NCBI GenBank assembly: GCA_032358255.1
Contig: JAULBX010030263.1
Coordinates: 124,001 to 188,000 of the forward strand
DNA length: 64,000 nucleotides
Direction: 5' to 3'
Origin: Heterotrichella gracilis
Lineage: Eukaryota; Sar; Xanthophyceae; Tribonematales; Xanthonemataceae
Part shown: piece after piece, positions 62 through 55,900 of the stretch
Layout of the letters: the number at the start of each line of letters is the position of its first letter
Position numbering within the stretch: the first letter of the stretch is position 1
Program-made: the position numbers and the translations under genes
Notes under the pieces: model-generated
Seen by the model: the letters and a program-made list of their open reading frames with translations, nothing else
What the model was told of the DNA's origin: nothing
Databases searched by the model: none

Positions 62-3000
62 TACTGGGTGCGCCACCCCGAGCTGCACAATGTGCCCATC
101 TACCAGGCCAGTTCCATGGCAGCCAAGGCGCTGTCGGTGTACCAGACATACATAGAGATGATGAACGACAACATCAAGGCGGCCTTCCAGGTGCGCAGGG
201 AAGTCCTAGCACGCTGCTGTACTTGAGACACATACATTAGAAACATGGAGCATAGTAGATGTTCATGCGCGCAACCTGATACCCCTCCCAACCCCCAAAA
301 ATGACCCTTGGCCCCCTTGGGCTCCAGGTGTCCACCCCTCTTATGTACAAGCACGTGCGCCACTTCGAGTTTTTCAAAACCTAACAGAACTCTTATAAAA
401 CCCTAGCACAAAAATAACCCGCCTGTTCAGCCCCTTCGTTTTCAAGCATGTTGCTCCACCTCCAAACCCTTCCCAAAACCCTCCAACCCCTAACAACAAG
501 TCTCCCTTCCCCCCCTGCCCCCAGGTGTCCAACCCCTTTGTGTTCAAGCACGTGCGGCACCTCAAGTCCATCCAGGAGTTTGACGACGTGGGTCCCTGCG
601 TGGTCATGGCCACACCATCCATGCTGCAGAGCGGAACCTCAAGGGAGCTGTTTGAGGCCTGGTGCGAAAACGAGAAGAACGGGGTCATCATCGCAGACTT
701 TGCGGTGCAGGTGAGGGAAGGATTGGATAGGTTGGGGTGCCCTTCCTTAGGGTTGTGGGTTGAAAGGGTGTGGGATTGCGGATACCGGAGTCATCATTGC
801 GAACATTGTGGTATAGGTGAGGAGGGGTGGGGAGGGATTCCGTTGGAGTTAAGGGTTGGGGTTGGGGTTTGAACAAGGGTGCAGGGCGGGTCATCGTCGT
901 GGACTTTACTGTGCAGGTGAGGGTGATAGACTCTTCACAAGGGTTGCATGTTTGCGATGTGACATGGCAATGAGAGCAACGGGGTCATCTTGGCGGACTT
1001 GGGGGTCCAGATGCACCTAGCAAAGGTACTAGGGTTTTCACCCCTCGTGGTTGCTGTGCGCAGGGAACCCTAGCTAGGGACATCCTGGGTGAGCCGGCTG
1101 AGGTCATGACACGGGCAGGGGTCAAGGTGAGAACGCCGAGAATGGGGGTGGAGGATGCAAGCCATACCATATAAATTGTTGTATATATTCAACTGGCATA
1201 CTTTATGCACACACACAGCTGCAGATACATGCGTGCCCTCAAAGATTGCACCCACTGGCAGTATGCACACGCCAAGCATACATGCCATGCTAATTGTCAT
1301 TTATATGTCATCTTTTGAGCACTTCTCGTGTTGCGCAAACCCTCCCCAAAACCCTAATGCACAATACCCACCCGTGTGCAGGTGCCCCTGCGCATGTCGG
1401 TGGACGCCATCTCCTTCTCAGCACACGCCGACTTCGCCCAGACCTCCGAGTTCCTTGACGCGCTGCAGCCCCCCCACGTGGTGCTGGTGCATGGGGAGGC
1501 CACCGAGATGATGCGGCTCAAGCGGGCGCTGGAGCAGCAGGCTGCCGCGCTGAATGTGGTTCGCAACGTGTACACGCCCAAGGTTACGCAGGAGGTGCTG
1601 CTGGAGTTCAAGGCGCACCGGCGGGCGCGGGTGAGGGGCCAGGCTTAGGTGCATCTGGTGGGGTTGAGAATTAAGGGTTTAGTAAAGCTGTCAGGGTTGA
1701 GGGTTGAGGACGCACAGGCGGGCGCGGGTGAGGGTACAGGGTTTTGGTGTACCTTTTAGGGTTGAGGGTTTAAGGCGCACCAGCGGGAACGGGTGAGGGG
1801 CCAGGGTTTTTGGTGTAATGCTAGGGTTCAGATGTAGCTGTTAGGGTTGAGGGTTCGAGGCGCACAGGCGGGCGGGGGTGAGGGTTTAGGGTTTAGGTAC
1901 AGCTGGTAGGGTTGAAGGTTGAGGACGCGCAGGCGAGGCACCTGGTGTTTAACGAGTTTTCCCTTATGGTTTTGAGCCTATTTGGCGTCTCCCTGGGGTT
2001 TTGGTAGGGTTATGCTGAGTCAGGAAAGGACTGGTAAATTGGCGGAGAGCTTTTCAGGTTGCACAAGCAGCCCATGGCACCAAACCTTTGTCAAGGAAAC
2101 TGACACTACCTGAATAACCCTGTAGGTGGTCGGGAGGCTGGCAGACAAGGTGCCTGGTCCAGGGGGGGTCGTTCAAGGCCTGCTGGTTCAACGGGGAGGT
2201 AACGACCTCATCATGAGCCCGCAGGACCTACCTGCACTCACGCAGCTGCGGGCGGCCGTGGTGGTGCAGCGGCAGTGCATCACGCTGCGAAGACCCTTTG
2301 GGGAGGTGCGCAGACCCTGGCAGAAATCCTAGGGAAGGGTTTCTAATGCGGCTGCACTGACATAATATTGTAATAAATGATTTGAGGAAGTGCATTGTTC
2401 CCATTCCCGATGTATAGCCATATGTATAGTGTCCGCCTCTATATCTTCTTTTCCGTAAGATGTGTCCTCCCCTATTCTAAGTATGACTACCCCCTTTTCG
2501 CAGGTGCGGCAGGCACTGGAGAACATGTTTGACTCGGGGGTGGAGGGCGCCACAGGGGTGAAACAGGATGGGGCTGTGGCAGGGGAGGAGGAGCAGAGCG
2601 TGCGCGTGGGGGAGCTGGTCACTGTCACCTTCAGGCCCAAGGCGGCGCCCTCGGACCCCGCCCCGCACGTGGTGGTGGAGTGGGAGGGGGGCTCGGTGTC
2701 TGACATGGTGGCGGACGCGGTGGTTGCCGTGATTCTGCAGGTATGGGGTTTGGGGATGGGTCGTAGGAGTCACCCTGGGAACTGTTTTGCACTGGGCACT
2801 ATATAAATACCCATCTGGGGGTGCATCTGCACCGGAATGTGTGCCATGGAAATGCGCAGCGTGGTGTCAGCCACCGCAATCCCCCGCAGGTAGCATGACT
2901 GCACTCAAGCCCTTGCATTTGGTAGGTTGGACACCTCTATACCCGGTCAATTACAAATCATCTCAAACGCCTCAACTCCACAAACCGAGTTGTACAACCC

Positions 3001-4527: not shown

Positions 4528-7390
4528 ATGTCGTCAAACCCTTTCAATGACTCTGACCCGTTTGCGGTAGGTGGTATGGTGGAGGTGGTTGTGCCGCAAC
4601 ACCCAGCTCGTACCCAGCTCTCAACCACCCTCCCCACTGACACATACCTCTCTTGCTCTTGCAGTCAAAGGGCAAAAAGGGGAGCAAGAAGGTAGGTTTT
4701 GCTAGTCGGTTGAGTTCAACGTTATTTGCATGCTCTGTAAAAAGCAAACGCAAGAGGTGCCATCTTTGCTAACGATCTTTTTTCCTGGTGGCGTGCAGAG
4801 CTCATCGACCTCTCCAGCAACAGGTACAGGCTCCAACCGCGTCACCTCGGGTTCACTTCTTGACGAGGGACTTCTTTCGCTGTGACAGCATAGACCAAAA
4901 GCACAGTGATGGTAGTGTGCAGTGTATATAGCATGATCTGCAGATGGGGTATACTGCAGAAACTGGTCAACTGGGCAGGAGTGGAGCGTTGGGCTCATCT
5001 CAGGCAAACGGTTGATTCTTGGCCTTTGCTGAAGCAAGCATTGCTTCTGTTTTTGAAGTGCAACCCTCCAAGGCCACTTTAATATTTCAGAGCACAAAGT
5101 TGGGCAGTTTGAAATTGTCACCTAGGTCAAGCCAACAGAAGGCGAACTAGTTGCTATGCTCTTTGCACTGTTGGCTATATCAACCTGGTATTACAGCATC
5201 TGCCATTAACATGGATCCCCAGTGCGTTGTACCCTTGCCCACTTAGCTATTGCTTGCAGGAGGATACAACCCGGCTGCAGGCAGCGCGATGGGTTGGGGC
5301 AGTTTGGGCAAAAGTGCCCCGGTGGCTGGAGGCGCCTGGGGAGCCCCAGCTGTACCAGCAGTCGTAGAAGACAGCGCACCAAATGGGGAATACGAGGAGC
5401 CCAGCGCATCGTCACCCACATACGGCAGCGTGCCTCCTGTGCCACTTTCCATTGCAGCCCCACAACCGGTAAGGGCCGATCATGCCGCAGGTTGACACTG
5501 GTCTCAGGTTGCATGGCTGCTCACTGGTGGGAGTGTGTGGCTTGTAACCGCTGTTTTTGTTTCAAACAGTCCAAGAAGGGTGGAGCCAAACCGGACAACC
5601 TGGCTGCGAAGGAGGCTGAGCTGAAGAAGAAGGAGGCTGAGCTTGCGGCCAAGGAGAAGGAGTTGCAGCGCCTGCAGATTCAAATCCAACAAGCTGGCGG
5701 ATCCATCCCCACTGGTACGGCCACACAACATTCACTAAGCGCTGAAGTGGCGCGGTCATCATCCAGCTCAAATCTGTCTTCGCATGTTGAACCATTATAT
5801 TTATATTGTGTTATGTATGTGTTATGTGGGATGATGTGGGCCGTGCTGGGCAAAGTTGGGAGGCTGTGCGGACGTGCGAGGAGTGCACCAGCAAGCAGAT
5901 GTGGCCGGCATACTCATTTTGAACGTGCATGCGCAGGGCCACCCAAGAACTACCCGCGGTGCTGCCCCATGGTGCGCCACAACATCAAAGAGGACATCCC
6001 CGACAGTATGAAGTCAACTGTGGGTTTTGCATACATCGCCTATCTGGTGAGTCGGTGCAGCACGGGTGTAGCGTTTATAAAGCGCAGCATGCAGTCAAGC
6101 TGGCAGTCCCTGCCAGCCTCAGACCGCATGGAAGGGTCTGTGCATTGTGGTGAACTTTTGAGGCGGTATGTTGAACTTTGGTCATGCATGCATGTTGCCC
6201 ATTTGACCAGAGTTCCCACGAGTGCAAATGCCTCCTGTTCCATACAGTCCTATGATGACACAATTACTTGGACTCACCCCTGTGAGGTGCAATGCTTGAA
6301 CTGGGCTGACGTGAAGCTTCTTGAGAGTGACATCCGTTTAAGTTATGCTGTGCTGGCGCAGGGTCTGGTGCTGTGCACCATCTACAACATGATTGCAGTC
6401 ACGGTTTCGCTGATTGTGACGGGGGGCTGCACCACCGGATTCTTCTTCTCATGTGCGTACGGCGCTTTGCTTTTGCTTTTCCTGTGAACGTTTCTTATTA
6501 TGCAGCAACTGTCTGAATGTTGGCATGCCTGTTGCAGTGATCTACATGGTTGCCATCCCCCTGGGCTGGCTTCTGTGGTACGGCCGCGTCTACAACGCAG
6601 CAAAGAGCGATGGCACCTTTGGATTTGTGATCTTCTTCCTCGTCTTCTTTGCACACCTTATCTTCTGCATCTGGAGCGCCGTTGGTAAGCCAGTGCACCA
6701 CTAGCGCTCGTTGTTGGGCAACATGTCTGGGCGGCCCATGTCGTTACTGCCATTTCAAAGTAATACCAGACTGGGCCATGTCGTAATACCAGACTGGGCC
6801 CATGCCAGACTGGGCCCATGTCGTTACTGCCATTTCAAAGTAATACCAGAATTAAGTGTCTTGCTGTGACGCATTGTTTTTGTTGCAGCACCTCCCCTCC
6901 TGGGCGCACAATGCTCACATGCTGGCTTCATCTACGGTCTGTCCAACATGGGCAACCTTGTGGTTGGCGTCATGTACCTCATTGGTGGCGGCCTGTGGAC
7001 GCTGGAATCTATTTGGTCACTGTGGACCCTGCAGGCGGTTCGTGCCATTCTTCGCCATGTGCCGACAGTCCTAAAGAATGCACATTATGAGCCATGTGTG
7101 CACTGTTGTGACCGACAGACAATCATACCCTGCCATGGGGATCACCAGGCTGCCTGCATGCGTTGCGGTGAAATGCATCCACTCACAATCTTACCTACTG
7201 TTGATCGGTGTGGGTGGCTGCATGCACCCTTGTGCCAGTATGCCTGCTGTGCCTCTGGATCCACGTTGCGATTGATGTGCATGGCTGGGCGCAGGTGTAC
7301 CGCTCCTTCCGCGGCAACAAGGGGCCAGAGCGTGTGCAGGGCCAGGTCCGCAGCAGTGTGACCCAGGCTGCCCTGGCACGTGTGGTGTGA
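4528..7390 (+). CDS. SCAMP: Secretory carrier-associated membrane protein (SCAMP)
   Basis: Four-pass membrane protein of the trans-Golgi, secretory vesicles and plasma membrane, with a role in vesicle trafficking. The start ATG at 4528 opens with MSSNPFNDSDPF, the NPF endocytic motif typical of SCAMP N-termini. Exons are 4528-4566, 4665-4691, 4799-4823, 5260-5468, 5570-5714, 5937-6046, 6362-6452, 6538-6684, 6889-7034 and 7295-7390, giving 344 aa (family about 280-340). Exon 5 encodes the Lys/Glu/Ala/Leu coiled coil, exon 6 the PKNYPRCCPMVRHNI block, and exons 7-9 the four hydrophobic helices with the IPLGWLLWYGRVYNA loop. The tail VYRSFRG is also family-like. The donor of exon 9 is ambiguous: either GC after CAG (7034) or GTTCGT after GCG (7037). 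Both keep frame. A short exon between helices one and two could have been missed. Confidence 0.92.
6735..6850 (+). repeat. 80-base tandem repeat in SCAMP intron 8
   Basis: The 36 bases at 6735-6770 (CCCATGTCGTTACTGCCATT onward to ACCAGA) recur identically at 6815-6850. Shorter partial copies of CCAGACTGGGCC lie between them. The period is 80 bases and the repeat is entirely intronic. Confidence 0.85.
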
Positions 7391-10415: not shown

Positions 10416-10436
10416 GTTTCTAGCTGCTCCTGCCAG

Positions 10437-11093: not shown

Positions 11094-14000
11094 ATGGCGG
11101 ACACCGAGGAGCCCGGCATCCCACTGGTGCCTGGCAAGGCACCAGGGTTCGACTCAGACCTGTATGGAAGCGCCACAGGGGACCGTTATGCGGGCTACGA
11201 TATGTCCATCCCAGTTGGGGAGGATGGGGGCGATGGGTTGGACGACCGGGAACGGGCCATGGCAAGGTACGTTTTGGCGTTGCATAGTGCATGCATATGG
11301 GCCATCATGCCCTCCTTCTGGTTTTTGCTTGCAAGCAGGAGCCACGGACAGCTTGATGACGCTGGTTTTCCACTGCAGTAAACTGGCTTCCTTCTCCGCG
11401 CCCAAGAGCGTCCTGAACGACCTGCCAGTGGGGGAGGTGGATGACCAGGGCTTTGCCCGGCCGTCCCGAATCATAGACCGGGAGGACGACTACAGGAAGC
11501 GGCGGCTGAACAGGGTAATCTCCCCGGACCGCAACGATGCGTTTGCCATGGGGGACAAAACCCCAGACGGGCGGGTGCGGACCTATGCTGATGTCATGCG
11601 GGAGCAGCAGCTGGCCAGGGAGAAGGACAACACCCTTGCCAACATCGCAGCCAAGAAGCGGGCAGAGGAGGAGGAGCTTGAGGCTGCCAACCTGGACAAG
11701 CCCACCAAGGCATCAGCTGGTGCAGCCCCCCTGCCCCCACCCCCGGCAGCTGTTGGGGACAAGCGCAGGAACCGCTGGGACGCAACCCAAGACGCCGATG
11801 CGTAAGCCACGGCACCCTACTGTGCACCTTGCGGCCTTCCCTGTTGATGTGCTGTGGAAGCAGCTGCAGCACTAGTTTTACAGCAACGCAATGCATACAC
11901 ATCAAGCCCATATCAGCCCAGCTGTAATAATCAGTCGCACAGTGCCACAGTCAGCCATATACCAAAGAGGGATGCACTGCCACCACCAAAGCACCACATA
12001 CATGCACACACACTACCCTCACGCACCAACACACTGCCCTAAACCAGCCACCCACCCTCAATTACCCCTTTGCACCACCTCACCCACCGCCCACCTCCCA
12101 CAGGAAAAAGGCAAAGTCGTCCGACTGGGACGCGGTGGAGGCCACGCCAGCTGTCAGCCGATGGGACGCGACACCTGGCGGCGCCACACCCAGCGCCACA
12201 CCGGGCCGCTGGGATGCGACACCTGGCGCAGGCTCCCGCTGGGACGCCACCCCTGCTGCGGGTGCCACGGGTGCCACGCCCAGGCGAAACAGATGGGACT
12301 CAACGCCGTCTGCGGTACGCAACCTGCAGCATACCCTTTTTGCGTAAATAAATGAAGCACAGCTCAGGTACTGGGCATTTTACCTTCTAGAAGCAGAGAG
12401 AGGGTGTGGAGGGGGAGCAAATGCACAGGACCTTATTGCACCGCAAGTAGGACATCTTGCACACCGCAAGGGAAAACTGCAAAATAAAATATTAAATCTT
12501 AGGGTAGACGTCCATCACAACCCTGCCTGTTATGCACCTAAACCAGGGTGTAACAGCGCCAACAGACAAACATCATATGCAAACCGCTGCGCATTGCTCC
12601 TAACCCTCAGCTTGCATCTTACACGCGCTCCCCTGTGTAGGTTGAGCCAGGCTCGACACCGGGCTGGGGTGGCGGCGCCACGCCTGCCGCAGTGGGCGCG
12701 ACACCCACACCAGCCCGCGGGCGGTCGAGGTGGGATGAGACCCCTGTGGGGGCAGGGGGAGGGGCCGGCGGCGGCGGTGGGCAGGCGCAATATGGGGCCA
12801 CTCCCATGGTTGGCGCCACGCCCATGATGACGCCAGGATTCGGTACGCTGGCCCCCTCCCACGCACACCAATGATGCCTAGCTGGCCTGATTCACCTTAG
12901 TCAAGGGGTAGCTGCACATGGGTGAGCATCGCTGTGATGAGGGCGCATTTCCAGCCATGGACTATTCTCAGACATGCTTTTGTCACTGTATGTGCCCTAC
13001 CCTTTATGGCAATATGCATTACAAACCCTAATAACCTGGCATGGCTTGGACTGCTTATTTGGCTGGAACACGTGCAACTGACTAAATACCATGGCGTGGC
13101 AGGCAAGTACCTCTCATCCCTACCTAATTACGGAGGGCATTGATGGGTATGAAGGTGTTTTTTCCTGACAAAGGTTCTACCCCCTTGCAGGCGTGACCCC
13201 CATGGGCGGCATGGGCATGGAGACCCCCAGCCCCTCCTCGATGCAAAACGTGCCCCTCACCGCCGAACAGTACCAGTCCATGCGCTGGGAGCGAGAGATC
13301 GAGGAGCGCAACAAGTTCCTGTCAGACGAGGAGCTAGACACCATGATGCCCACAGAGGGGTACAAGGTGCTGGAGCCGCCCGCGGGCTACGCCCCGGTCC
13401 GCACCCCGGCCCGCAAGCTGATGGCCACGCCCACGCCCATTGGAGGTACCCCACTGTACCAGATCCCTGATGAGGACCGGGGCCAGATGTTTGATGTGCC
13501 CCAGGCGCTGGAGGGGCTGCCTGACCTCAAGCCCGAGGATCACCAGTACTTTGGCAAGCTGCTCAAGGTGCGGGGTCGGGTCAGGGTGGAACGGTTAGGG
13601 TTTTGTGGCGCCAGGGTGCAGTCGATAGGGAATTCAAGCGCAGGTTTTGGGGATTGACAGCGCATTGGGGAGCCGCTGCATTGCATCCCTTTAGTATTAT
13701 ATGCTCCTCAAAGGTGCCCGATTTCTGCGCCCCAGCATATTCTGATCATCACATGTGGTTGGAGCGTTGTTATACAACGCCTAACCCCTCCGTAAGAGGA
13801 TGAAGACCCTCAACCCTAGCCCTAACCCTCAACCTACCTCCCCCAAGAAGGTTGATGAAAACCCTAGCCCTCAACCCTACGCCCTGCCTTCCCCCAGGAG
13901 GTGGACGAGAACGAGATGACTGGGGAGGAGGCCAAGGAGCGCAAGATCATGAAGCTGCTGCTCAAGGTGAAGAACGGCACCCCCCCGCAGCGCAAGTCCG

Positions 14001-17000
14001 CCCTGCGTCAGCTCACAGACAAAGCCAGGGACTTTGGCGCTGGCCCGCTGTTCAACCAGATCCTGCCGCTGCTCATGTCGCCCACACTGGAGGACCAGGA
14101 GAGGCATCTGCTGGTCAAGGTCATCGACAGGGTGCTGTTCAAGTGAGTGGGCGGTGGGAGTGGGTCGGTGGGTGTGGGGGGGAGGCGTGGTGCCTCGGCC
14201 ATGGGTGGGGAGGGGCGCGTGCTGCTGTGTGTGTATTCTCATCCTTGGCACCATTTGAAGTGTCGGCATGTGTGGTCATCAACACGATATGGTTGGCGTG
14301 GATGTGGGTTCAGCGACACTTGTGTAGTGGATTGTCACAACGTCAGGTGCACAGGGGTGCCATTGCTGCCTCCCCAGTCCCCGTCGAACCCCAAGTAAAA
14401 TCCCTAGGGCTTTGAACCCTAAACCCTACCCCCCCACCCGCAGGCTGGACGAGCTGGTGCGCCCCTTTGTGCACAAGATCCTGGTGGTCATCGAGCCCCT
14501 GCTGATTGACGAGGACTACTACGCGCGCGTGGAGGGGCGGGAGATCATCGCCAACCTCTCAAAGGCAGCGGGCCTAGCCACCATGATCGCCGCCATGCGC
14601 CCCGACATCGACAACATCGATGAGTACGTGCGCAACACCACCGCGCGTGCCTTCTCGGTGGTGGCCTCGGCGCTGGGGATCCCCGCGCTGCTGCCCTTTT
14701 TGAAGGCGGTGTGCCAGAGCAAGAAGTCGTGGCAGGCGCGGCATACAGGCATTAAGATTGTGCAGCAGATTGCCATCCTCATGGGCTGCGCGGTGCTCCC
14801 CCACCTCAAGTCGCTGGTGGACATCGTCAAGCACGGGCTGGTGGACGAGAACCAAAAGGTGCGGGGTTTAGGGTTTACGGTGTAGGGCTGATGTTGCAGG
14901 CAAGATGTGCCATGGCATTGGTTTAAGTAGCGCATGCTCATGTCGCTTTCAAATCCTGCTGACGAACCATTCAGGGATGCAAGGACAGGGTGAAGTGGGT
15001 AATGCCTGTGCAAGGCTTGCTGCTAATTTAGCTGTACCGTTGGAATGTATGCAAGTATTACGACCTGCTGACACGCACACCTGCCCCACCCCTAGGTGAA
15101 AACCATCACTGCGCTAACGGTGGCGGCCTTGGCGGAGGCGGCTGCGCCCTACGGCATTGAGAGCTTTGACGACGTGCTGGAGCCGCTGTGGAAGGGGATT
15201 CGGCTGCTGAGGGGCAAGGTGCTGGCGGCGTTCCTCAAGGCAATTGGTGCGTGGCGGTGATTGGGAAGGGGGGTTGGTGGCGCATGCTGGTGGTGGTTAC
15301 GTGGGGTGTGTTAAGGGGGATCCCAGTGATGGATAGGGGTGGGGAAGAGGTATAAGGGGCCGCTGGAGGTGTGTGAGCTGGTGGGAGGGGGTTGGAGTGG
15401 ACCGGCGTTGCAGGGTCTGGTTAGAGCTTAGGATTGTCTCCACCCAGTAGCGATGTCATCACATTGCACACCTTGCCTGAAGACACTGAAACCCTGGCTG
15501 CACCCTAACCCCCCCCCCTCCCCCTATTCCCCAGGTTTTATTATCCCCCTGATGGACGCCATGTACGCCAACTACTACACGCGCGAGGTGATGGTCATCC
15601 TGGTGCGAGAGTTCCAGACGCCGGATGAGGAGATGAAGAAGATCGTGCTAAAGGTAGGGGGCAGGAGGCTGGGGACCTAGGCCATTCTGTTCGTTATCTA
15701 CAGTTCTTGCCCTTAAAGGACAGTTTGTTGTTCAAATGCATTCCAGCAGCACATGCAGATGGCAATCGCACCGTGCAGTCTGCGCTAACCAGAACTGCCT
15801 TGGCAGGCGTTTCATGGCTAGGCTCTGTACATATCTGTTATCCCTGGGCTAACGTCATGTGAGTACATGCTTATTTTCTGTCTTCATTTCTTGCCACCAG
15901 GTTGTGAAGCAGTGCGTGGGCACCGACGGCGTTGAGCCCGACTACATCCGCGCAGAGATCCTGCCTGAGTTCTTCCGCAACTTCTGGGTGCGGCGCATGG
16001 CGCTGGACAGGAGGAACTACAGGCAGCTGGTGGAGACAACGGTGGAGATTGCAAGCAAGGTGCGAAAACCCTAATGAAAAAGCTACTTGAACCCCTAAAC
16101 CCTAGATGGTGTGACCAGCTGGTGGAGATTTCCTGCAAGGTGTGGGGCTGGAATTCTATTGGGAAAACGCCACTGAACTCCTTAAAAGCCCTAGATGGTG
16201 TTGTCAGGTATCTGTGGAGCATGGTACATTGCATGAACTGTGCAACCAATTACGATGCCACAGTGAATGCAACGTAAAACAGGTTGTGAACCCTGGCTCC
16301 CACCCCACCCTCTACCTCTGAGAGAGCACTTCGTGCTTGCACTTGGCTCCCTGGGTGCCCTACTGTTTTGGCATGCCCCCCACTCCTGCTCCTCATCCCC
16401 ACCCGCCCATTCCCCAGGTTGGCAGCGCCGACATCATCTCTCGGGTGGTTGAGGACCTGAAGGACGAGTCGGAGCCCTACCGGCGCATGGTCATGGAGTC
16501 GATAGACAAGGTGGTGCAGGCGCAGGGCACAGCCAACGTGGATGCGCGGCTCGAGGAGGTGCTCATCGATGGCATCCTGTACGCCTTCCAGGAGCAGGTG
16601 TCGGATGACGCCAACGTGATGCTCAACGGGTTTGGGACGGTGATCAACGCGCTGGGTGAGTGGTGGGGAGTGTGGGGGGATCGTGTGTGGGGGATTGGGG
16701 ATGGTGATCGCTGTGATGTGCCTGTACTGACAAACCCTGAAGCCCCTCTTCATAGAAAACAGCAGAATGAAACAGAAGAAGCATGTTGCAAAATGGATGA
16801 TGTGTAGCCTGCTGCGGCAGCCTGACTCGCATTCGATGTTCCTCTCATTGCGCGGTGGACCTGATGCACTCCTCTCATCATTCTTGGATGCCTTGTTGAA
16901 TAGGCCCCCCTCCAACAGGCCTATTCCCTGTCTTGGAATAGCGCCCTTGCATCCCTTCCTCCCTCTCACACTCAAACCCCTCCCCTCCCCTCCCAGGCAA

Positions 17001-22684: not shown

Positions 22685-23299
22685 CGGACACCAGTTTTGT
22701 TTGGGCAGTTACTCAACGCCCCGCACGCTGACTTACAGGTTAATGGTGCCTACACTGTTTTCTGTCTTGAAACACCGACTCGGCACGCAGACCACCCGTG
22801 GCATCTGAGGGATGGGGAGTCACGCGGTTTAGATTCAGTGTAAAACTGTTTGGGGGGTGCAGAGAGAGGCTGTCCATCTGATGTGTATATGCATGCCGAT
22901 ACTCGGCATGCCCCGAGGCATGTGCACTCCACCCAGTTGGAAGGGCCAACCAAGACGTGCACACTGTTTCTCTATGCATCCATGGAAACAACTGCCATAC
23001 TGTACGTTACAGCGTCCTCTGTGCTTTCCTGCACCCCAGTCTTCAGCCAAGAGCAAGACTGTATCAGGGGAGGCGAGTTTTGTTGACCGTACCCCCCTTG
23101 ATGTGTCTGGCAGCCACTTGCATGCATTGTGCCGTCGCAGATTGATGGCAACCTCTATCAGGCGTGCCCAGGTGGATGCCTGCTGTATTGTGCTATACTA
23201 GGCAATATACTAGTTTTGACAGCAGTGTCTTCGAGATATCCTGTGAGTGGCGACAATAGCGCAACCCAGAAGCATCGCTAGCTTCGTTGGCAAGTCAAG
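22685..23299. other. Divergent promoter region of membrane protein gene and SRPK
   Basis: 615 bases between two ATGs facing away from each other. No supported exon; no clear TATA box. Confidence 0.4.
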
Positions 23300-29061: not shown

Positions 29062-31989
<2,928 letters not shown>

Positions 31990-39995: not shown

Positions 39996-42721
39996 ATGCA
40001 TATCCGGTTTGGAGATGGCGGTGGGGCCGCCATGGACGTTGCACAGGAACGGGTGCACACCCGTTCGTTAGCACCCACCTCCAGCCCCCAGCCTTTGAGC
40101 CGCTGGCACCTTGCGTCCTCTGTGCGCACAGACTATGACAACCAGAACCAGTGCTACGTCTTTGACCTTGCTACTGCGCCAGGCAGCAACCTCATCGCGG
40201 CATCCCTGTCGAACAACCTGATCAAGCTGTACAGCGTGCAAGCCGGAGGGGTGGGCTTTGTGAGGGACCTTGCAAAGCACCGAAGGGCGGTCAACTGCCT
40301 AATTTTCCCATCCGAGGCCTCTCCACATGAGCTCTATTCGTGCTCCAGTGATGGCACTGTGCTGGGGTGGGATACAAGGACCGGGCAGAATGTTGAAACG
40401 TGAGTGGCTTGTGTGTTTTGTTCATGCCCAGCAGTGGCCCACACAACATACCTTGCAGGCACACACTACATGCTGCAACCCACTCTTTCCTGGCTTGCAT
40501 CGGCTTGTGGCTAGGTGTCTCTACTGTTATCCTGTTGTCAGTGGCGAGGCAGCATACCTTCCAGGCACAAGTAAATGGTCAATTTCCTGCATGTATATGT
40601 AGGCAATGGCTTGACTGACACTGCATTGCTTGTAACAGGTACTCTGCAGGGTCTCGTGAGCTGTATTCGTGCAGTGTCTCGGAAAATATCATTGTCGCTG
40701 GGTCAGACGGCGCGCTGCTCTTTTGGGACAGGCGAAAACAGCAGAGCTGTGCTCGCTATGAAGACACGCACGCTCAGGACGTGACACAGGCAAGTGCCTG
40801 CTGGTTATCCTGTTAGGGAGGCTAATGGTGACTTGGGCTGACTCTGGCCAGCGGGAACTTATGCGCAAGATCAGCGGTTGGGTATGAATAGATAGGACTC
40901 ATATGGATTTGATGACTGCTTATTGGGCTGTGCGTTGGAACGCACACAACCAACTAATACCATGTTAACTGCAACATCGGCACCGGCGGGCATTTTGCAG
41001 CCATGCGAGCGCGGACGAGTGCAATGTGTGAACCTGTTACCAACCCCTCGATTTCCTGCAGGTCCACTTCCATCCTGTGTTCAAATCCAAGCTGCTGAGT
41101 GGGTCCACAGACGGCTTGATTGCTGTGTTTGACGTGGCACAAGGGTTGGACGAGGACGATGGGTTCCAGGTGGGTCGGCATGCTTTCAACCTTGTAACTC
41201 GCTTTGACAGCATGCACTACATAAACCACTGCCAATACGCACTGATCTCTTTTCCCTTCTTGGCTCCAAATAGTGCCTTTGGAGGATGTAACCCGGTGCA
41301 ATACTGACTGCCTGCACCCTTTCATGCGGCGTGTGCATCTCTGCATGTCGCGCAGGGGTGTTGCTCACATTACATCATGCAGTGTCATCAATGAAACTGC
41401 AATTTGCATGGCGATACGCTGTGCCCCTGTCCACGACTTGCTCGGTGATACGCCTGTGTCCATGACATGGGCACATGGCCTCATGCCGCTGTGACAGAAC
41501 CTGGTGCTGTGTGTGTATATAGGCGGCCTGCAACGTGGCAAACTCTGTGGCCAAGTTTGGCTTCTACGGGCCGCAAGGCGAGGTCCTGTGGTGCACCACC
41601 CACACAGAGTCGCTCTACATGTGGGAGTGGGCAGCGGCATGTTCAGATGACATGGAAGGTACGCCACAGACAAGTGTACGAAGGCAGCGTCCCACATGCA
41701 CCCTCAATTGGTTGATGATTTGCTTGCTTTGTTGGCAGCCTTACACCACATGCACTGACGTTGCGCTCTTTACACGCAGCACATTACCAACTGCTTTCTT
41801 TTGCCATGTCCAGGTGGCGATGGCCCGTTGACCGAGTGTGATGACATGCGCAGCCAGCTGTCAACCATCCTGCAGTCCTCCCCTACGGCCACAGCGCTCG
41901 ATACCCAGGTGGACTACCTGTTGGACTGCCACTACAACGCCGCCAGTAACCAGCTGTGCCTACTTGCGGGCAGCAACAGCGGTCCTGTGGGCTTCTTCCC
42001 CCTGGCGTCCCCCCAGGAGCTGAGGGCAGGGGCGCAGCTGGCAAGGCCGCCCTGCGCCGTGATGCAAGGGGGGCACAATGACACGGTACGCAGTGGATCA
42101 ATAATTATAATAATGAGAGTTCTAAATTACATGTTGGTAGGGTACGCGATGGATCAATATTTACAATATGATCCGCTATAGATTACATGTTGGTGGGTAG
42201 CTGATGGCGGCTGTGGCGGCGCGCAGGTACGGTCAGTGCTGTGGTCTCAGCCCCAGGGATGGTGCTGCAGTGCTGGGGATGATGGGGGCATCTGCGCATG
42301 GCAACAAACTTAATCCTACTAACCTGAGCCAACATTGGTGCTGCAATTCGTCATTGCTCCCGCAACAATGGTACGCCCTGCGACATTTACACTGTACACC
42401 GCAGTAGAGTGTGCAATAGGTGCAATTAATGAAAAATGGTGAATAAAACCGGCTATTAGCATGCAATATGGGTACCTGCATTTTCCTGTCGTTCCGTGCT
42501 CACAGAGCTTGTATACGTGTGTTCAGGTGCGCTCAGTGCTGTGGCCTGGGGCCCAGGGGGAGCTGTGCTTATCAGCTGGGGAGGACGCACGCATTTGCTT
42601 GTGGAGCGTGCACCAGCAGCAGGCAGCGGAGCACAAGCACCGGCAGGCGGGTGGTGGGAATGGGCATGGGAGTGTTCGCAAGCAGCATGGGAGCAAGCAG
42701 CACCGCTTTGGGCCATACTGA
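39996..42721 (+). CDS. WDR89: WD40-repeat protein, WDR89-like
   Basis: A small beta-propeller protein of about 422 aa resembling WDR89, whose function is poorly known. Exons are 39996-40399, 40639-40789, 41062-41169, 41523-41658, 41814-42085 and 42527-42721, joined in phase. An in-frame ATG at 40032 is an alternative start. WD-like blades end in SDGTVLGWDTR, SDGALLFWDRR, STDGLIAVFD, TESLYMWEW and GEDARICLWSV. The block SKLLSGSTDGLIAVFD followed by an acidic stretch (LDEDDG) is characteristic of WDR89. Intron 2 uses a GC donor (CAG then GCAAGT at 40790). An in-frame duplicate of the terminal exon lies inside intron 5. Convergent with TatD, 270 bases away. Confidence 0.85.
42086..42195 (+). repeat. 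Tandem copy of the donor region in WDR89-like intron 5
   Basis: The donor GTACGCAGTGGATCAATA at 42086 is repeated as GTACGCGATGGATCAATA at 42142. The following TTACATGTTGGT is repeated at about 42128 and 42184. The period is 56 bases. Confidence 0.8.
42227..42313 (+). pseudogene. Duplicate terminal exon of the WDR89-like gene, in frame
   Basis: A copy of the last exon (42527 onward) lies 300 bases upstream, after a GCGCAG acceptor. It opens in the same phase and reads VRSVLW ... SAGDDGGICAW before a TAA at 42311; the annotated exon reads VRSVLW ... SAGEDARICLW. Splicing to it would give an intact final WD blade and a shorter tail. It may be an alternative terminal exon rather than a dead copy. 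Confidence 0.7.
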
Positions 42722-42991
42722 CTGCATGTGCTGGGCCACGGCACTCGCAGTGCAGCCTCATTGTACATGTAGATTACTGACCTGGGCGTACTGGGAGTAT
42801 CCCTTGAAAACCCGTTGCCTCAATGTATATTAGACAGCCAAATAGATGGGCAATCCATTGTTCATTAGGAATGATAGAACATACTGCAGAGTGAGTCCGC
42901 ACGTGATACCAGTTAATTGACGCTGTGCCATAACGTTTTTCAAGTTTCAAACTTTAAGTTGCAAGTTGCAAAGAACTCAGAAGTTTGATGA

Positions 42992-45333
42992 TCATTGACT
43001 ATGTCCTGACAGGAACATCCTGCGCGCATTACTGTAAACCTGATCCGTCACCATCGCCGCGTCCTCCACCCCACGGTGCCCCACCACCACCTCCAGCACA
43101 TTCACTATGGTGCACGGCTCATTGCGCCCCTTCACCATGTGGGTCTCCTGGTGCTTCTTCTTGTCTTTGGCCTCCCATGTGGTGTTGACGTAGCGCTTGC
43201 CGGCGTGTGTGGGGCGGATGTCACACCAGGGGCAGTCGGTCTCCAACATGAGCCGATCCAATGGGATTTGAGCCATCACATCCAGGTTGTCTGCAGTCTT
43301 CAGCGAGCAGCCGTTGATGCCTGCATGCATATTTGACACACTTGTTTCGTTTTTGAGACAGTTAAACTGCAATCGCGCGATTGCAGTTTGCAGAGCTGCA
43401 ATGCCCTTTGCAACGCCATGCCAGTGACGTGACGTGACGTGACGGTCATCATTCATGGGCAATGACCAATAATATGAAGGGCGGACTGCATGAACAGGGC
43501 CATGTAAATGGGGACGCTGGGTGACATTAGCAAACCATGCAAGATAAGTGGCAAGTTTGACCTGGTTGCTAAGAGCCTGTGCAGGGACTGATGGCAGGCC
43601 CTCCCAAATAGTAGGAAGGAAAGGAAAGGAAAGGAAAGGGAACGCACAGAGGCATAGTTGGGGGGCCACTGCGTATGTAACTGCTTGGACAATTTCTGAG
43701 TCAGGTGAGGTGCCAGAGTGTGGGCATTGGATGTCATCATTCATGGGCAAATGCACAACAATATCAGGCACGATGCAGGCTGCATAGCATGGATGTATTG
43801 CGTATGCAGTACATGAGCGCTCCAATGTTTTTCATTAGAAAATACTTGTGAATATTGCATGCCTGGCCCAGCATTACAACGGCAGCAAGTCTTCAAGGAT
43901 TGGATAGTGTTGCACCTCACAGGTATCTTAACCCTCAGCGGCTCAAGGTGACACAATTCTGGTATGTGCACAGCCCTCACCAATGGACACGTTCTCCAAT
44001 TTTAGCAACTCCCCAAGCTCTTCAACTGTCCCATCAAAGGAGTGCACCACACCTCCACCAAAGTCTTCTCGATGCTGTTTGAGGATCCGCACAAAATCCG
44101 CAGCCGCAGCCCGCAGGTGCAGGAACATTGGCATGTTGCTTCTCCGGGCCAGCTCAAAGTGGCGCTTGAAGTACTTTTGCTGCGTCTCGGCGTCGCAGAA
44201 ATGCAACCTGACACCCAGCCCACAATGCATGGTTCAGCCACAGCTCCGCCCATGCAACAGTTGCATACGCCAAGGTAGTGGAGAGGGCACAGCCATGCAC
44301 CGCAGTGTGCAGCTGTGTGAGTTTCAATTGTCCATTGGGCCAAGTCCCCTTGTATAAAGAAGGGCGTCACCCAACATTAAAGAGCAGAGACCCCGAGTGC
44401 TGGTTTGTCTTATCCACCGCTGGCACCACCCATAGGCCATCAAGGGGGTGTACCTCCAACAAATTACTCAAACTCCTTGGTTGCCCACATGCATGTGCAC
44501 CGTGCTGTGACGAAACAAACATTGATCCGCAACCCTCAAGCAAGGTCACCTGTCATAATCCAGTCCGCACTCCCCCACAGCCACCACTTTGCCCTCTGCA
44601 GCTCCCTCATTGAGTACTGATGCCAGCTCAGCCATGTATGCCTCGGGGCCATCAGGGTGCGCGTCAAACTCCCCACATCGCGTGGGGTGCACACCCACAG
44701 TGCAGAATAACCGATCTGCACCAACGGAGTTCACTTCAGGCCCTGCTCTGACTCAAGATCCTTCCCAGGGAGGGTGCCAGTCTGCTATAATCCCACACAG
44801 TGCACCGGATACCACAAATTCTACTATTGATGCATGTGCAGCGTCATGCACCATTAAACCCTAAACCCTGAAGTACGCTTGCAGCGAAAAACAGCAGGTG
44901 CACACTGTACGACACCCTCACCGTCCGTACGCGCCAGGTCCAGTGCCTTGCGTGCCTCAGAGAGGGACCCAGCTGTGATTATCATCCCCTCCACCCCTGC
45001 ACAGTGTGCGCGTGCTCTGTGTTGTGTTGTTCGGTACCGTCCATTGCACGGCAGGATGGCAGAGGCTGCCATCGCACCTTGTCAGGATTAAGCACGCAAG
45101 TATACAATGATCCACAGTAAATCACTAACTGACCGCCAGTGCCTTTGGTATGTCAAGGGCAGCCGCAGGAAGCAAGCAGCCTGTCCCAATACAAGTGTGT
45201 GTGATGCGAGCTTACCACCTGTCCAGGCCCTCTGCAGTACTGCCTGCAAGTCAGGTTGATGATAGGTCTTGCCATTGTACTCTCCCTGGTACATGTCATC
45301 CAGCAAATTGACTCCGATATCTAGGAACTTCAT
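42992..45333 (-). CDS. TATDN1: TatD-type DNase (TATDN1-like)
   Basis: Metal-dependent 3'-5' exonuclease of the amidohydrolase superfamily, linked to DNA repair and apoptotic DNA breakdown. Minus-strand exons are 45333-45216, 44996-44922, 44715-44550, 44207-43981 and 43320-42992, giving 304 aa (human TATDN1 297). Visible family blocks are [38 protein letters not shown] (metal-site His), [11 protein letters not shown] (metal-site Glu), MFLHLRAA (His), GVVHSFDGT (His) and LMLETDCPW (Asp). The usual short loop between HPTRC and the acidic block is present. The frame stays open upstream of the chosen ATG, so a longer N-terminus is possible. A stretch of simple repeats lies in intron 4. Confidence 0.93.
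43428..43790. repeat. Simple repeats and a diverged duplication in TatD intron 4
   Basis: GTGACGTGACGTGACGTGAC lies at about 43425-43444 and an (AAGGA)n run at about 43617-43640. The sequence CATCATTCATGGGCAA with following GGGC...GCTGCAT-type bases occurs near 43447 and again near 43736, a spacing of about 290 bases. Confidence 0.7.
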
Positions 45334-46351: not shown

Positions 46352-49118
46352 ATGCACATTCGTGCTTCCAAACTCTCTAACCTGCTAACAAGGACACTGA
46401 TTCGTACTAGGCGCCGCAAGTCAAGCTCGAGGCGTGCTACTGTAATCATGGCAACAACCCAGCAGGTCGAGGTGCGAGGAAGCCAACCCCGCAGTTACCC
46501 TTTCAACCCTAAACCCTAAAAACCGCACTAGGGACGCGGAAGGATGGACAGGGTTGCTTTGAGGTTCCGGGTATCCATGGCAGCTTCCTTTATTTCAAGC
46601 ATATTGTCAGCGTGCTTGAGCAGGCACTTGCCCCAAAATTCCTGCAGGGTTTGAGTTTAGGGTTACAAATATCTTCCGGTATGTACCCATGACCCTTTCC
46701 TTTGCTCCAGGAAGCTTCCCAGCGTGCCCGAGCCGGCAACCGCCCCAAGGTGGCGGTTGTGGCTCTGGGCGGCAACGCACTGCTCAAGCGCGGCGAGCCC
46801 CTGACCATGGGCAGGCAGATTAAGAACGCGCGCGAGGCGTGTGCCGCCCTGGCCCGGCTGGTGACAGAGGAGGGCATGGCACTGTGTGTGACCCATGGCA
46901 ATGGGCCGCAGGTTGGCATGCTGGCGCTGCAGGTGCGGGGGCGCGGTGGATGATACCTATTTTTGCGGTGTTTAGGGTTTAGGTTTAGGTTTATGAATGA
47001 TACCGTGGTGCCTATTTTTGCGGTGTGTGGTATAATGTGTGGTATATCTGCGCGGTGTGCATGTATGATGTATGTGGCATCCAGTACCTTGCATTGCATG
47101 ATATGATGTCAACAACACTGCAATCGATTTGCAATGGTGTGGGTCCGGGCCACAATGTAATGCATCACTCTTGCTGCCTTGGCCTCGATCAAAGTGGTGG
47201 ATAGATATGTTGAGGCCAAAGCAGTGAGTATGATGCAATTCATTCTGGCCAGACCCCACGCCAATGCGAATCGCATGCGGCATTGACATCACGCAACGCG
47301 AGGGGTTCATGGATCGTGAAAGGATGGCTTGATCCATTCTGCGTTGGACATGTTACCGAGCCATCAAGGCCAACCATACCCAATCTGTCAAGAGCGCCAA
47401 GTGGGCCTCCCCTGCAGGACCCTAACGCAGGGTTGGATGTTCTGGATGCCGAGTCAGAGGGCCAGGTGGGGTATATCATTGAGAGCGAGCTCCAGCAGGC
47501 CCTGCCAGGCGTGCAGATAGTCACCCTCCTCACACAAACGGTGGTGGATGAGTCTGACCCTGCATTCCAGAGCCCATCCAAGCCCATCGGCAAAATGTAC
47601 TCGAAGGAAGATGCTGATAGGTGCAGTGCCAAAATGCATTTTTTAACGGGGGTCAAAGGAAGATGCTAAGGAAGGTGCAGTGGCATATTGCGTCTTTGTT
47701 TATTGAAGAAAGACAAAAGCGCTTGCATGTTTGCACTGCACAGCATCACACCTAGACCCTAGGTGGGGTTCATGCATGTGCAACTACTGGCATGCTACGC
47801 AATCTGGCATCTACTAGTTTGAGTAGTATTGCATACGACCTTAATGGGCCGGCTATCTGCTGAACCTTGCCTTACGTGTTCATGCTTTCATGACCAGGCT
47901 TGCTGCTGAGAAGGGATGGAGCATGGCTGCTGATGGTGACTCGGGGTACCGGCGGGTGGTGGCCTCCCCTCGCCCCCTGGATATAGTCGAGGCTGCTGCA
48001 ATTGAGCTGCTGCTGTCGCACGGGGTCATCACGATATGCTGCGGGGGGGGAGGCATACCGGTGCGTGTGGGTCCCACCTGTATTGAATAGCAATAAACAG
48101 GAGTGATCTGGGCTTTATCGTGGTTTTTGAAGGTAGTCTGTGTATGAACGGGTTAAATAGGCAATTTGCATGTGTCAAAAGCAGATGTCCCCTCTCTGCT
48201 GCCAAAAATTGCATCTCGTTTCAAATTGAACAATTGCGTCCAAGAATGGTAGTGCATGGACTGCAATGTTGCTACCACCTTGTAGACGGACTTCATCTAC
48301 AGCCGGGTAGCGTTGCGTGTGTGTGCTCATGTCAAGAGAAACTGAAGGCATTGTAATGTAAGTCAGTATGTGTACCGTACTCTGTATGCATGTGTGTGTG
48401 TGCATATTGTGCATGTTTGTAAAAAAATACAAGGAATTTTCGTTGTGCAGGTGAGTAGGATGGAGCAAGGCAGGAAACATGGTGTGGAGGCAGTGGTGGA
48501 CAAGGATGCAGCTTCCTCCCTGCTGGCGCAGCGGATCAAGGCTGACTGGCTGCTGCTGCTGACGGACGCTGACGCGGTGTATGACCCCGACAAGTGGCCG
48601 GGGGAGAAGGTGCAAATTGCATCCCCTTCAACACCGGAAAGTAAGTGGGGGTTTGGGGGGGTGTAGAAGATGGCCTATCTTGGTGCTCGGCTTGAATCGG
48701 GGCTTTGAAGCCTCCCTTGTACATGCGGGAACGGGGGTGTCTTCAGCGTACTTTGACCAGTAATAACTTTTTATAAAGTATCATCCAAATGAATGGTGCA
48801 TTGCCCTTATCTGTCACAGGGCGCTTAGCGCTTAGCCTAGTGGGCAGTGGCAACACCTGGTAGACCATACGTCAACACCTTCCGTTGGTAAAGCTTTTGA
48901 TGCGCTGCAGTTGTTGATTGTTGATCTACTTGTGTGCAGGTTTGGAGACCAAGACGTTCCAGAAGGGCTCCATGGGCCCCAAGGTGAGTGCGTGCTGCGA
49001 GTTTGTGAGGGCCACAGGGGGCAGCGCAGGCATAGGGGCTCTCAAGGACGCTGTGGAGATTATCAATGGCAGCAGAGGGACTGTCATACGGCAGGGAAAT
49101 GGTGCAGCTAAAGGTTGA
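46352..49118 (+). CDS. arcC-like: Carbamate kinase with targeting extension
   Basis: Interconverts carbamoyl phosphate plus ADP with carbamate plus ATP, the last step of the arginine deiminase pathway. Exons are 46352-46471, 46711-46932, 47418-47620, 47898-48060, 48451-48640 and 48940-49118, giving 358 aa. The catalytic part, about 315 residues, is the length of bacterial ArcC. It contains [87 protein letters not shown] and [10 protein letters not shown]. These are all expected ArcC blocks, including the KD-AS-LLA signature. The first 40 residues are rich in Arg and Ser with almost no acid ([20 protein letters not shown]), like a mitochondrial or plastid leader. Internal introns rule out bacterial contamination. 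Intron 3 carries a copied donor. Confidence 0.95.
46942..47045 (+). repeat. Tandem and telomere-like repeats in carbamate kinase intron 2
   Basis: CCTATTTTTGCGGTGT occurs twice, about 55 bases apart (near 46956 and 47011). Between them is GTTTAGGGTTTAGGTTTAGG, close to plant telomere repeats. Confidence 0.75.
47599..47690 (+). repeat. Copy of exon end plus donor in carbamate kinase intron 3
   Basis: The exon 3 end GGAAGATGCTGATAG with donor GTGCAGTG at 47621 is echoed by GGAAGATGCTAAGGAAG with GTGCAGTGGCAT at 47675, 54 bases on. Using the second donor would break the frame at the stop near 47667. Confidence 0.8.
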
Positions 49119-52900: not shown

Positions 52901-55900
52901 GAAAAAGTGCACTAGAGCATTAAGTCAGCGTGTGATCATAACCACATCATGTGATCAACATTTGATATGATGGTACATTACGCGGCCAGCGCCATACAAC
53001 CAGCGTGCAATCGCCATATGGATATGATCGTACCTTGCGTAGCCAGCGCCATGCAAACAGTGGTGCCAGCATGGCCATTGACATTACTGCTCCTGAAGGT
53101 CCCCTGTCCACCTGAGTTGAGGCTTGGGTAGCTGTCTCCATCGCTGATTCGCTGAGAGCTCCGCCAGACATGCTGTCCCTCACGGAAATGGTGCAACTTT
53201 GAGAGGGATCTGGGGACTGGCGGCTGCTCGGCGGGGATGAAAACTGCGAGATGGAAGCCCCAGGGAGGGGAGAGGTGCGGGGTAGGAGGCGCTCCTCCGT
53301 TGCCTGCTGAGGGTACAGAGGGGTCAAAGGACTAGATGCAGTTGGGAAAGCACTGGGAATTGCATGGGAAGTTTTGTGCAGCACGTTCCTCTACCAGCTT
53401 TAAGGGGTTGCATACCGCACCCGATCAACAACTGTCCCAAGTTTACCTTGTAGGCATGCTGTACAATCTTGATTGTTATCTTATTTAAATTCAAATGGTA
53501 ACTTAAAAAACACAAGTAAACAAGCTTGCAGACACCAACTGTACCGTGGCCATACTGTACAAACCCATGCCTCACACCCCACAACACAGCCACACCCACC
53601 TTGCGTTGCCAGCGCAGCCCTGCCAGCGATGCAGTGGCAGCCCCCCACATGCCTGCCACCTTGGCACCACGGGGCCTAATCTCCCGGAGGTCAGCATCCG
53701 CTAGGGACAGCGGAATGTCGCACATTTGTGAGGGGTTTGGTGAGGCGCGGCTGATGTCACAGCTGGATCTGTCTCCATTGGAGCTGACGGTGGAGGACCC
53801 CAGCAACGGGTGCCCTGCTTGGGATCTCTGCGCCAAAATGTTGTGTTAAGTGATCAGCGCTTGAATGTGCAACTGAAGTTGCAACTGTATGTATGTGCGT
53901 GCGCAGGGCTCCAGCTGGAAGGATGCTGTGTGTCCAGCACTCAACGGCACAGGCATGTACTGCCAATTTGCAACGTATGTTTCTGCCAATCCTTCCCGGT
54001 ACGATCGGCAATGTGCGCATTTGCCCCAATTATATTCACTGCCTACCTTGAAAGGCCAGATGGCCAAAGCAGGCCATGCCCCGCAGCAGGTGCAGTACTT
54101 TGGCCCCAAAAGGACCACAGCACCCGCCACCACCACCACCAGCAGCACAGCAACGGCCACCCACCACGCCTGGAACCCCCCTCCCGAGGTACTGCTCTCT
54201 GATTGGGTGGAAGGGGTGGGGGCGGTGGGTGGTGGGCTGGCATTGAGGGGTGGGCTGGCGGTGGCGGTGGCTGGTGGTGGGGTGGTGAGCGGTGGGGATG
54301 CAATGGGTGGGGGGTTGGAAGTGGGGGCACAGAACTGCAGCTGTTGGTGACCTGCACAGAGGGAACTCCATTGCCATCGGTGCACATGGTTTTGCATCAA
54401 AGGGGTTCACAGACAGAAATCGCAATTCTTGCATTTTGTAGAATGGAAAATGCCACAAATGCACTGCTTTTTGTGAGAGCGTGAATGCAAGCACCGCCAA
54501 GAAAAAGTGCATTAAGCCGTGGTGATATTTTTGGTGCGCATGGTGTTCATCTCAACCCATTACATGGACTTTTAACAGCACATAGGCGGGAAGGCTGAGG
54601 CGGGTCACCCTTCGCCTGTTTGCGCCACAGGGATCGTATGCGCCATGCAGCATCCCCAGCACCCACCTGATATTGACATGATGGTTGCCTGGCCCCCCGC
54701 CTCCGCCTGGGGTGCCGAGATCTGCAGGGACGCCATCTGGGTCCCCGGGAAGTAGGGCGACGCCTCCGCGGGCGCCACGTCAGCAGTCACAGTGCCAGCT
54801 GGGCACGAGGCAGCCCCATCTGTGGAGGGTTTTGCTGGCGCAAGAGGCGGCTGACCGCTGGCAACACCCCCCTGAGCTGCGGGTGAGGGCATAGTGCTGT
54901 TCTGTGGCTGCTTGACGAGCTGCACGAGCCGATTTGCGGTCTCGCTTTTGGATGTGCTCTGGCTGGGTGGTTGGCTGCTTGTGGTGCCATTGATGAGAGG
55001 CAGTGCGGCAAGGAGCTGGCTGGCTGCCTGCTCTCCTTGCCTGGTGGCATTTGAGGGGGGGCTTTGCTCGAGCAGCTGTGACCTCCCCACCAGGGGTACT
55101 ATTTGCGCGAGGCGCAGCATGGTAGAATCGCCTGACTCAGGCATGGCCTGGGGTGCCCTGCTGGGATGCTCATGGATGTGTACCTGGTGCACAGGGCAGG
55201 TGGCATGAGGTGAGAATGTGAATGCGCTGGTCTTGTTGAGCGTCTACTTGAGCACAAAAAAGGCAGAGGTGAAAGCTGCCTCTACCAAATCACTCGTGGC
55301 GCATACACAACCCATCCTTTTTTTCATCTTTTTGTGTGCGCCGCATGAACGAATAGAGAGGGACTTACCTTAAGTTCCACTTCCACTGGGCTGACGCAGG
55401 TGCTCGAGATCTCCAGATGCACTGTCCTCTCAGCAGCCTGCATCGAAGTTGCAGGTTGGTGAGTTGTGCTAAAATGGGATTTGAGTAACCTACAGGCAAC
55501 ACACTGCTCATTGGGTATTAGGTTCAAGGGGCTAGAGTGTGTACCTGATAGCTGTGGATACCCAACCTTGTCAATAGCCCACCCCTGCACCAGCGAGGTT
55601 TTTGTTACTGTTCCTGTCTGGTTGTTTGTGTGGTTCTCTCCGTGCAGCTGAATGCATACTTGTGACTCACCAGGTTGGTACAGTAGGAGCACCAACTTTC
55701 TGCTGCTGAGTGCAGCCTTGGCCCCTGCACTGAGCTTGGGTGTTGGGTGTGAGGCAGTTTGCAACCTCCTCCTCGGACTTGGCAGCTCGAACCCTGCAAC
55801 AGTCGAACGGGCATTAAAAGTTGCAGATGGTAATCATAGAACTGAAAGCTAGCAAGCCGTGTACGTGGTGCAACGCTGTTGGCGGTTAAACAATCCTTGG

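Follow-up and report, generated by a model that had tools for sequence, protein, structure and literature searches.

The 64,000-nucleotide window analyzed here, bases 124001-188000 of contig C771 (575,215 bases) in the Heterotrichella gracilis assembly (68.5 Mb, 903 contigs), contains introns in which the edge of the neighboring exon, together with its splice site, has been copied one or more times. These duplications are confirmed as real, recurrent, graded in age, and commoner at splice boundaries than in the interiors of exons or introns. Tracts of the telomere repeat of this genome, TTTAGGG, lie between copies and are, within the sample analyzed, nearly confined to introns. Judging from the sequence, the boundary duplications are probably scars of DNA break repair, often accompanied by insertion of telomere repeats, which lengthen introns. 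An earlier, sequence-only reading of the window had described the exon-edge copies and had pointed to intron gain by tandem duplication of AGGT sites; the telomere-repeat link, which is the most informative feature, was absent from that account.

The comparisons were made on a 214-kb sample comprising C771 74001-238000, C2 100001-140000, and C772 50001-60000. The sample counts exclude stretches of C1 and C100, because long open reading frames and low GC content (0.35 and 0.40, respectively) mark both as bacterial contigs within the assembly; their reading frames are presumably Bacteroidota-like, and the culture was therefore probably not axenic. A hidden Markov gene finder, seeded with CPSF73 exons read from the sequence and trained on the sample, returned 47 genes and 303 introns, with donors resembling CAG/GTGAG and acceptors TGCAG/G (the slash marks the splice junction). 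It recovered the seed exons, the 3'-end of the last being shifted because CPSF73 was fused with SCAMP; two false exons were also predicted within the copies in CPSF73 intron 2, so that boundary counts are noisy. Pfam backs CPSF73, SCAMP, the amino-acid kinase, WD40, protein kinase, and chlorophyllase assignments; SF3B1, SRPK, and TatD-like are names given by eye, and carbamate kinase is the earlier name for the amino-acid kinase gene. A search with the RuBisCO large-chain family gave no match.

Windows of 60 bases were compared by Smith-Waterman alignment with the next 400 nt (donors) or the previous 400 nt (acceptors), and a cross-gene null with three draws per window placed the 99.9th percentile at 27.2 for donors and 25.2 for acceptors. 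Scores of at least 30 were reached by 19 of 254 donors and 23 of 262 acceptors (some of these boundary rows being false exons called inside copies), as against 15 of 603 exon interiors and 46 of 1189 intron interiors; the null frequencies were 0.0000, 0.0000, 0.0011, and 0.0014 in the same order. Fisher tests gave p values of 0.001 (donors) and 8e-5 (acceptors) relative to exon interiors, and of 0.013 and 0.0013 relative to intron interiors. The claim that exon-edge duplications recur in introns is thereby borne out, for the sample, beyond the chance level of the cross-gene null; the proposed comparison with interior windows shows boundaries exceeding both kinds of interior, and the copies are of graded age. 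Slower decay on the exon side was considered as the full cause of the excess and rejected: simulation of uniform duplication with such an asymmetry (four parameter sets; substitutions only, no indels) produced boundary/intron ratios of 0.88-1.18, which are too low for the observed 1.93 and 2.27, and an approximately twofold boundary excess therefore remains. Twenty-three duplication events were aligned, that at 106698 aligning with itself and being uninformative. Many periods obtained by self-alignment are of ~70-130 and 190-205 nt, and an informal reading of the alignments puts the exon share of boundary units at no more than ~0.6 of the unit.

The clearest examples within the window are found in CPSF73, SRPK, and the WDR89-like gene, all on the forward strand, where the copies reported earlier are strongly confirmed by self-alignment. 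The CPSF73 exon at 525-710 has been copied on both sides. Its start recurs on the acceptor side of intron 1 at 324-370 (period ~197), with a further decayed copy, seen by eye, near 426-464; its end (~669-710) and donor recur in intron 2 at 787-822 (decayed, 106 nt downstream, identified from the sequence and the alignment row at C771 124710), 888-923 (31/36 identical), and 969-1013, where the donor GT has been lost. A second CPSF73 exon end and donor (1606-1646) is followed in intron 4 by some four further copies (1703-1935) with TTTAGGG-like runs between them; an automatic scan placed telomere-like tracts there at 1755-1772, 1841-1855, and 1879-1898. In SRPK, the exon end and donor at 24920-25005 reappears at ~25123-25207 in the intron after 24989 (period 203; 80% identity over 86 nt), and that at 25566-25612 reappears at 25717-25763 in the intron after 25612 (period 151; 89% over 47 nt). 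The WDR89-like intron combines a 56-nt unit in 2.2 copies beginning at the donor (42085-42207) with an acceptor-side copy, at 42224-42258, of 42524-42558 (300-nt period).

Other cases named in the earlier account survive in weaker form. The duplication at carbamate kinase donor 47620 (47601-47685, forward strand, period ~52-54) scores 34 against the donor percentile of 27.2, and that at SF3B1 donor 16059 scores 29. For the SF3B1 acceptor copy, the best row listed, 13897, scores 25 and so lies at the null percentile of 25.2; its correspondence to the intron 5 originally named is uncertain. The repeat in the modular membrane gene (52964-53003 / 53021-53060) is a weak ungapped match of 33/40 bases. 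The view that the first, exon-proximal donor is the one which keeps the protein agrees with the predicted products: CPSF73 spliced at first donors encodes an uninterrupted partial protein of 451 amino acid residues in which Beta-Casp, RMMBL, and CPSF73-100_C are recognized; the SRPK product so derived matches Pkinase, its kinase domain kept. First donors are thus presumably those in use. SF3B1 and the SRPK-like kinase (11094-26797) lie near CPSF73, giving three RNA-processing genes in 27 kb, possibly by chance.

The telomere repeat of the genome is TTTAGGG, arrays of which stand at the starts of contigs C70 and C140, and many tracts are interstitial, lying within contigs. The 17-mer CCCTAAACCCTAAACCC has 2437 exact matches genome-wide, overlaps counted, and the reversed pattern has one. 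Telomere-like 14-mers with at most one mismatch formed 41 loci in introns, one between genes, and none in exons (predicted classes of 94.7, 56.1, and 63.2 kb, respectively); with tighter merging, 44 of 45 tracts in the sample were intronic. A random spread over introns and intergenic DNA, as in humans, was accordingly not found. Flanking repeats above the 99% point of the null accompany 18 of the 45 tracts, compared with 20 of 600 random intron positions. The distance to a donor is at most 25 nt for eight tracts, and that to an acceptor for nine, where 3.75 and 3.67 are expected (donor p 0.027). Telomere-bearing introns are the longer ones, with a median of 330 nt (n=36) versus 256 nt (n=267; p 7e-4). 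A telomerase reverse transcriptase domain (PF12009) is encoded at C626 (E 4.8e-13, two stretches over the cut-off).

Short motifs reveal the same association. In introns, AACCCT and AGGGTT rank among the more frequent hexamers, several-fold above Markov expectation (AACCCT, 91 versus 16 in the second halves of introns). AGGGTT occurs in the first 120 nt of 6 of 14 introns curated as donor duplications and of ~10% of 280 others; for AACCCT and the last 120 nt, the figures are 7 of nine curated acceptor-duplication introns and ~12% of 280 others. Each hexamer is ~7 times denser in the curated set (Fisher 0.0024 and 2e-5, respectively, with control counts rounded from percentages). The four commonest intron hexamers in the sample are TGCATG, CATGCA, GCATGC, and ATGCAT, which are common between genes too and rare in exons. 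Two hexamers within 25 nt before a tract were counted genome-wide, each count having an expectation of ~62 derived from the sample hexamer frequency: CAGGTG occurs 89 times before tracts in the C orientation and 129 times before those in the G orientation, and CACCTG 58 and 102 times. CAGGTG stands on both sides of a tract in direct orientation at least 23 times and in inverted orientation at least nine times among the matches compared, which cover 100 of the 129 and 100 of the 102 G-orientation cases (p 0.010); 4 of the 23 direct loci are on C420 and 2 of the nine inverted ones on C325, and these may be related copies.

Telomere-like tracts within the window include, in SF3B1 on the forward strand, 14413-14429 (sense C, 14 nt from the acceptor), 14863-14881 (sense G, 4 nt past the donor), and 16090-16106, which lies 30 nt past donor 16059 and has weak direct repeat flanks (score 29). 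Further forward-strand tracts are found in SRPK at 24459-24478 (10 nt past the donor) and in the carbamate kinase gene at 46503-46521 and 46968-46986 (31 and 35 nt past their donors). On the reverse strand, 21248-21264 lies 12 nt from an acceptor and 44854-44872 is within an intron of the TatD-like gene. A fixed orientation, G-rich after donors and C-rich before acceptors, was suggested by introns of the sample; it is broken by C-rich runs after donors at loci L044, L026, and L037.

Because the curated list was made by eye, a second set of 24 loci was chosen by the telomere motif alone. These carry exact (TTTAGGG)4 on contigs other than that of the window and were taken in order of search output, leaving out contig-start arrays and neighbors of loci already chosen; telomeric words were masked before the repeat search, and intergenic DNA is represented among the control windows. 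At 15 of the 24 loci (14 without L031, whose repeat reaches the contig end), direct repeats were present within 900 nt, versus 34 of 237 control windows (p 6e-7). Similarity between the two flanks exceeded all 552 cross-pairs at nine loci and the 99% point at 11. The cleanest cases are L044, L027, L032, and L036, in which copies of 23-26 nt lie directly beside pure telomeric inserts. At L026 a perfect copy of 27 nt lies 69 nt beyond the tract, with another copy between, and at L042 a copy of at least 70 nt lies 14 nt beyond it. An exon end with its donor is repeated around telomeric tracts three times at L044, four times at L026, and three times at L037.

From these features we surmise the following course of events. 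A staggered break with ~25 to 200 nt between nicks would open near a splice boundary; both overhangs would be filled in and the ends joined, leaving a direct repeat. A large proportion of such repairs would also place (TTTAGGG)n between the copies, the simplest agent being telomerase at work on the broken 3'-end. A break over the exon-intron boundary would copy the exon edge and splice site into the intron, where the extra copy could be spliced out and decay while the original, exon-adjacent site stayed in use, so that the intron would grow. Repeated rounds would yield two to five copies, and selection would presumably act as the filter on where duplications persist.

Several observations weigh against this account or restrict it. 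The duplication list was curated by eye after the motif had first been noticed, and its 13 donor events correspond to 14 introns, its nine acceptor introns being counted without the event at C771 123354. Several sample tracts share an intron and are therefore not independent. CACCTG is unenriched before C-tracts and enriched before G-tracts, so that the hexamer test does not single out donors alone. At 13 of the 24 motif-chosen loci, no adjacent flanking copy exceeded the 99% point of the null, and the motif in its expected orientation is lacking in 10 of 23 curated boundary-duplication introns (by eye, both of those in SRPK among them); telomere repeats are therefore not needed, and tandem duplication of the plain kind is at work as well. 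At C2 135568, which has diverged least among the long boundary cases (94% over 102 nt), a telomere-like run follows both copies, and the run there was therefore carried along, not inserted. Finally, ordinary splicing signals may account for some of the G-runs after donors and of the CCCTAA words before acceptors, since short motifs peak at these places also in introns without duplications.

The last two points lead to the alternative that telomere-like runs came first, as splicing elements or fragile sites, their G-rich strand provoking breaks or recruiting CST/Pol-alpha fill-in, which would then generate the tandem duplications. We regard this ordering as rather doubtful. The recurrence of the run with the copies at C2 135568 and in CPSF73 intron 4 agrees with it, as do the peaks of G motifs near donors and of C motifs 20-40 nt before acceptors in introns lacking duplications; moreover, CST-guided Pol-alpha is reported to make small tandem duplications at 3' overhangs (PMC8355091). 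Set against these, the run in L027 lies between both copies and not at their outer ends, other runs being further upstream; CPSF73 intron 4 has, by eye, no run after the last copy; and the clean inserts are pure telomere. L027 speaks for a tract which arrived with the duplication and C2 135568 for one already present. A branch-site or splicing-enhancer function as the whole explanation was rejected for the longer tracts on account of their flanking copies and pure inserts, and is kept here as part of the fragile-site alternative. CST-guided fill-in would be a reasonable maker of the plain tandem class (PMC8355091).

It is unlikely that plain tandem duplication acting everywhere accounts for the whole pattern, with boundaries standing out through constant exon copies and selection against exonic duplications, and with telomere-like runs incidental. 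Events within introns, between genes, and in exons, together with the curated introns lacking the motif, are what such a process would leave. However, the simulated ratios fall well short of the boundary excess, duplications are four times as frequent at motif-chosen loci as in controls, and tracts sit between copies. Mobile elements ending in a telomeric tail, or a family of introners, leaving target-site duplications and nearly always truncated to the tail, are highly improbable as the source: direct repeats of 23-26 nt do resemble the target-site duplications of retroelements, and confinement to introns is reminiscent of introners, but the 24 masked loci gave no cross-locus matches at E 1e-3, and therefore no carrier element is seen.

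Break repair with telomeric filler could create introns as well as enlarge them. At L036 the upstream exon ends in CCGCCCGCAG, followed across the donor junction by GTAAAACAGGCA; a telomeric tract comes next, and the acceptor reads CCGCCCGCAG followed by GTTCAACAGGCA. Donor and acceptor are in register, agreeing by eye at 20 of 22 positions. Removal of the intron leaves one open frame over the join, the product of which has no Pfam match, and the intron holds two further copies of the exon start. This one locus suggests an intron made by telomeric insertion with a duplicated splice edge. Comparison of donor and acceptor neighborhoods over 292 introns revealed no excess of in-register matches beyond the splice consensus, and a general origin of introns by AGGT duplication was rejected on this ground. 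Gapped donor-acceptor similarity with a score of at least 24 was found in 11 of the 292 (null 0.34%), the rows listed being largely out-of-register duplications and false exons; telomere-bearing introns were not richer in it (1/36 versus 10/256). Most cases are therefore read as lengthening of existing introns. The duplications of the sequence-only reading and their boundary excess thus stand, and its suggestion of intron gain by AGGT duplication is less supported for most cases. Tentatively, telomeric insertion coupled to transcription or splicing may be a live route of both intron growth and intron birth in this lineage. A transcribed gene, once broken, would receive a patch of (TTTAGGG)n with target duplications of 23 to ~100 nt on either side; where the duplicated piece carried AG/GT, the patch would at once be a spliceable intron and telomerase a source of introns, as L036 suggests.

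Duplications are not restricted to boundaries: self-alignment also reveals wholly intronic (6733-6850), intergenic (34171-34334), and exonic examples. The first, inside a SCAMP intron, is a 38-nt perfect direct repeat of period 80 with a nested 16-nt tandem repeat, a young plain duplication in which no telomere motif was seen by eye. The second, between predicted genes, is a 79-nt tandem repeat in 2.1 copies, with no telomere motif seen in the unit. Short-period pairs lying in exons alone have periods of 87, 90, 120, 174, and 240, and of 108 and 162 where a predicted 54-nt intron intervenes, all multiples of three, as expected if selection filters them. The 151-period pair at 149566 was read as a donor duplication, and a distant exon pair has a period of 2126, not a multiple of three. 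Whole-exon repeats (periods 325, 366, and 691) are a separate kind; at C771:97499-98266 a 69-nt exon, its length a multiple of three, is present three times (periods 366 and 325). In a minus-strand gene at C771:226549-226909, a duplication of 361-nt period seems to span a whole intron and the exon edges on either side, so that a fused pseudo-exon lies midway in a 637-nt intron. Positions 466-615 of L030 hold a 151-nt stretch that is 91% identical to a site on C771 and matches C2 and C772 more weakly; it may belong to a dispersed repeat family.

Old events are the basis of most inferences on intron gain and growth. This genome carries many scars that differ in age, with a patch recognizable by its sequence, which makes a break-repair route to intron growth testable by comparison of strains. 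The near-confinement of tracts to introns poses the question of what breaks or patches DNA only at spliced genes.

The closest parallels are the following. Mammalian interstitial telomeric sequences (ITSs) are described as inserted during double-strand break repair, with target-site duplication among the outcomes and telomerase proposed as their maker; simple duplication is given for 4.6% of rodent, 16% of primate, and 4.5% of horse loci (PMC2246262, PMC7215372), and 31% of human ITSs are intronic, compatible with random insertion (PMC7215372). The present tracts resemble them in being internal telomeric runs with target duplications beside the tract (9/24; 18/45 versus 20/600). They differ in that flanking copies occur at 9-11 of 24 long tracts and that the sampled tracts are nearly all intronic. 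In Daphnia, intron gain and growth are attributed to staggered breaks, 61.1% of new introns have internal repeats, and repeated rounds enlarge introns (PMC4202315); the feature shared with the present genome is that direct repeats, ascribed to staggered breaks, lie within and next to introns. The exon-shared repeats of Daphnia measure 4-12 bp, whereas those described here range from 23 to at least 70 nt and have telomeric filler, and the stem 'telomer' is absent from the text of that study (PMC4202315). Intron gain by AGGT tandem duplication, of which a potato case also crosses an exon-intron boundary, is likewise on record (PMC3443670, PMC4974935), and the duplicated segment here similarly holds AG/GT; most of our cases, by contrast, appear to enlarge an existing intron, and only at L036 was a telomeric insert seen together with an in-register match. 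Widespread direct repeats of 4-30 bp near the borders of introns have been reported (PMC11782384); the repeats here are longer and often multi-copy, and the abstract of that report names no telomeric link. Among the papers listed, none tied telomeric insertion to intron growth in its title or abstract opening. Relative to these systems, what is new is that long duplications, telomeric filler, and copied splice boundaries occur together and nearly only in introns.

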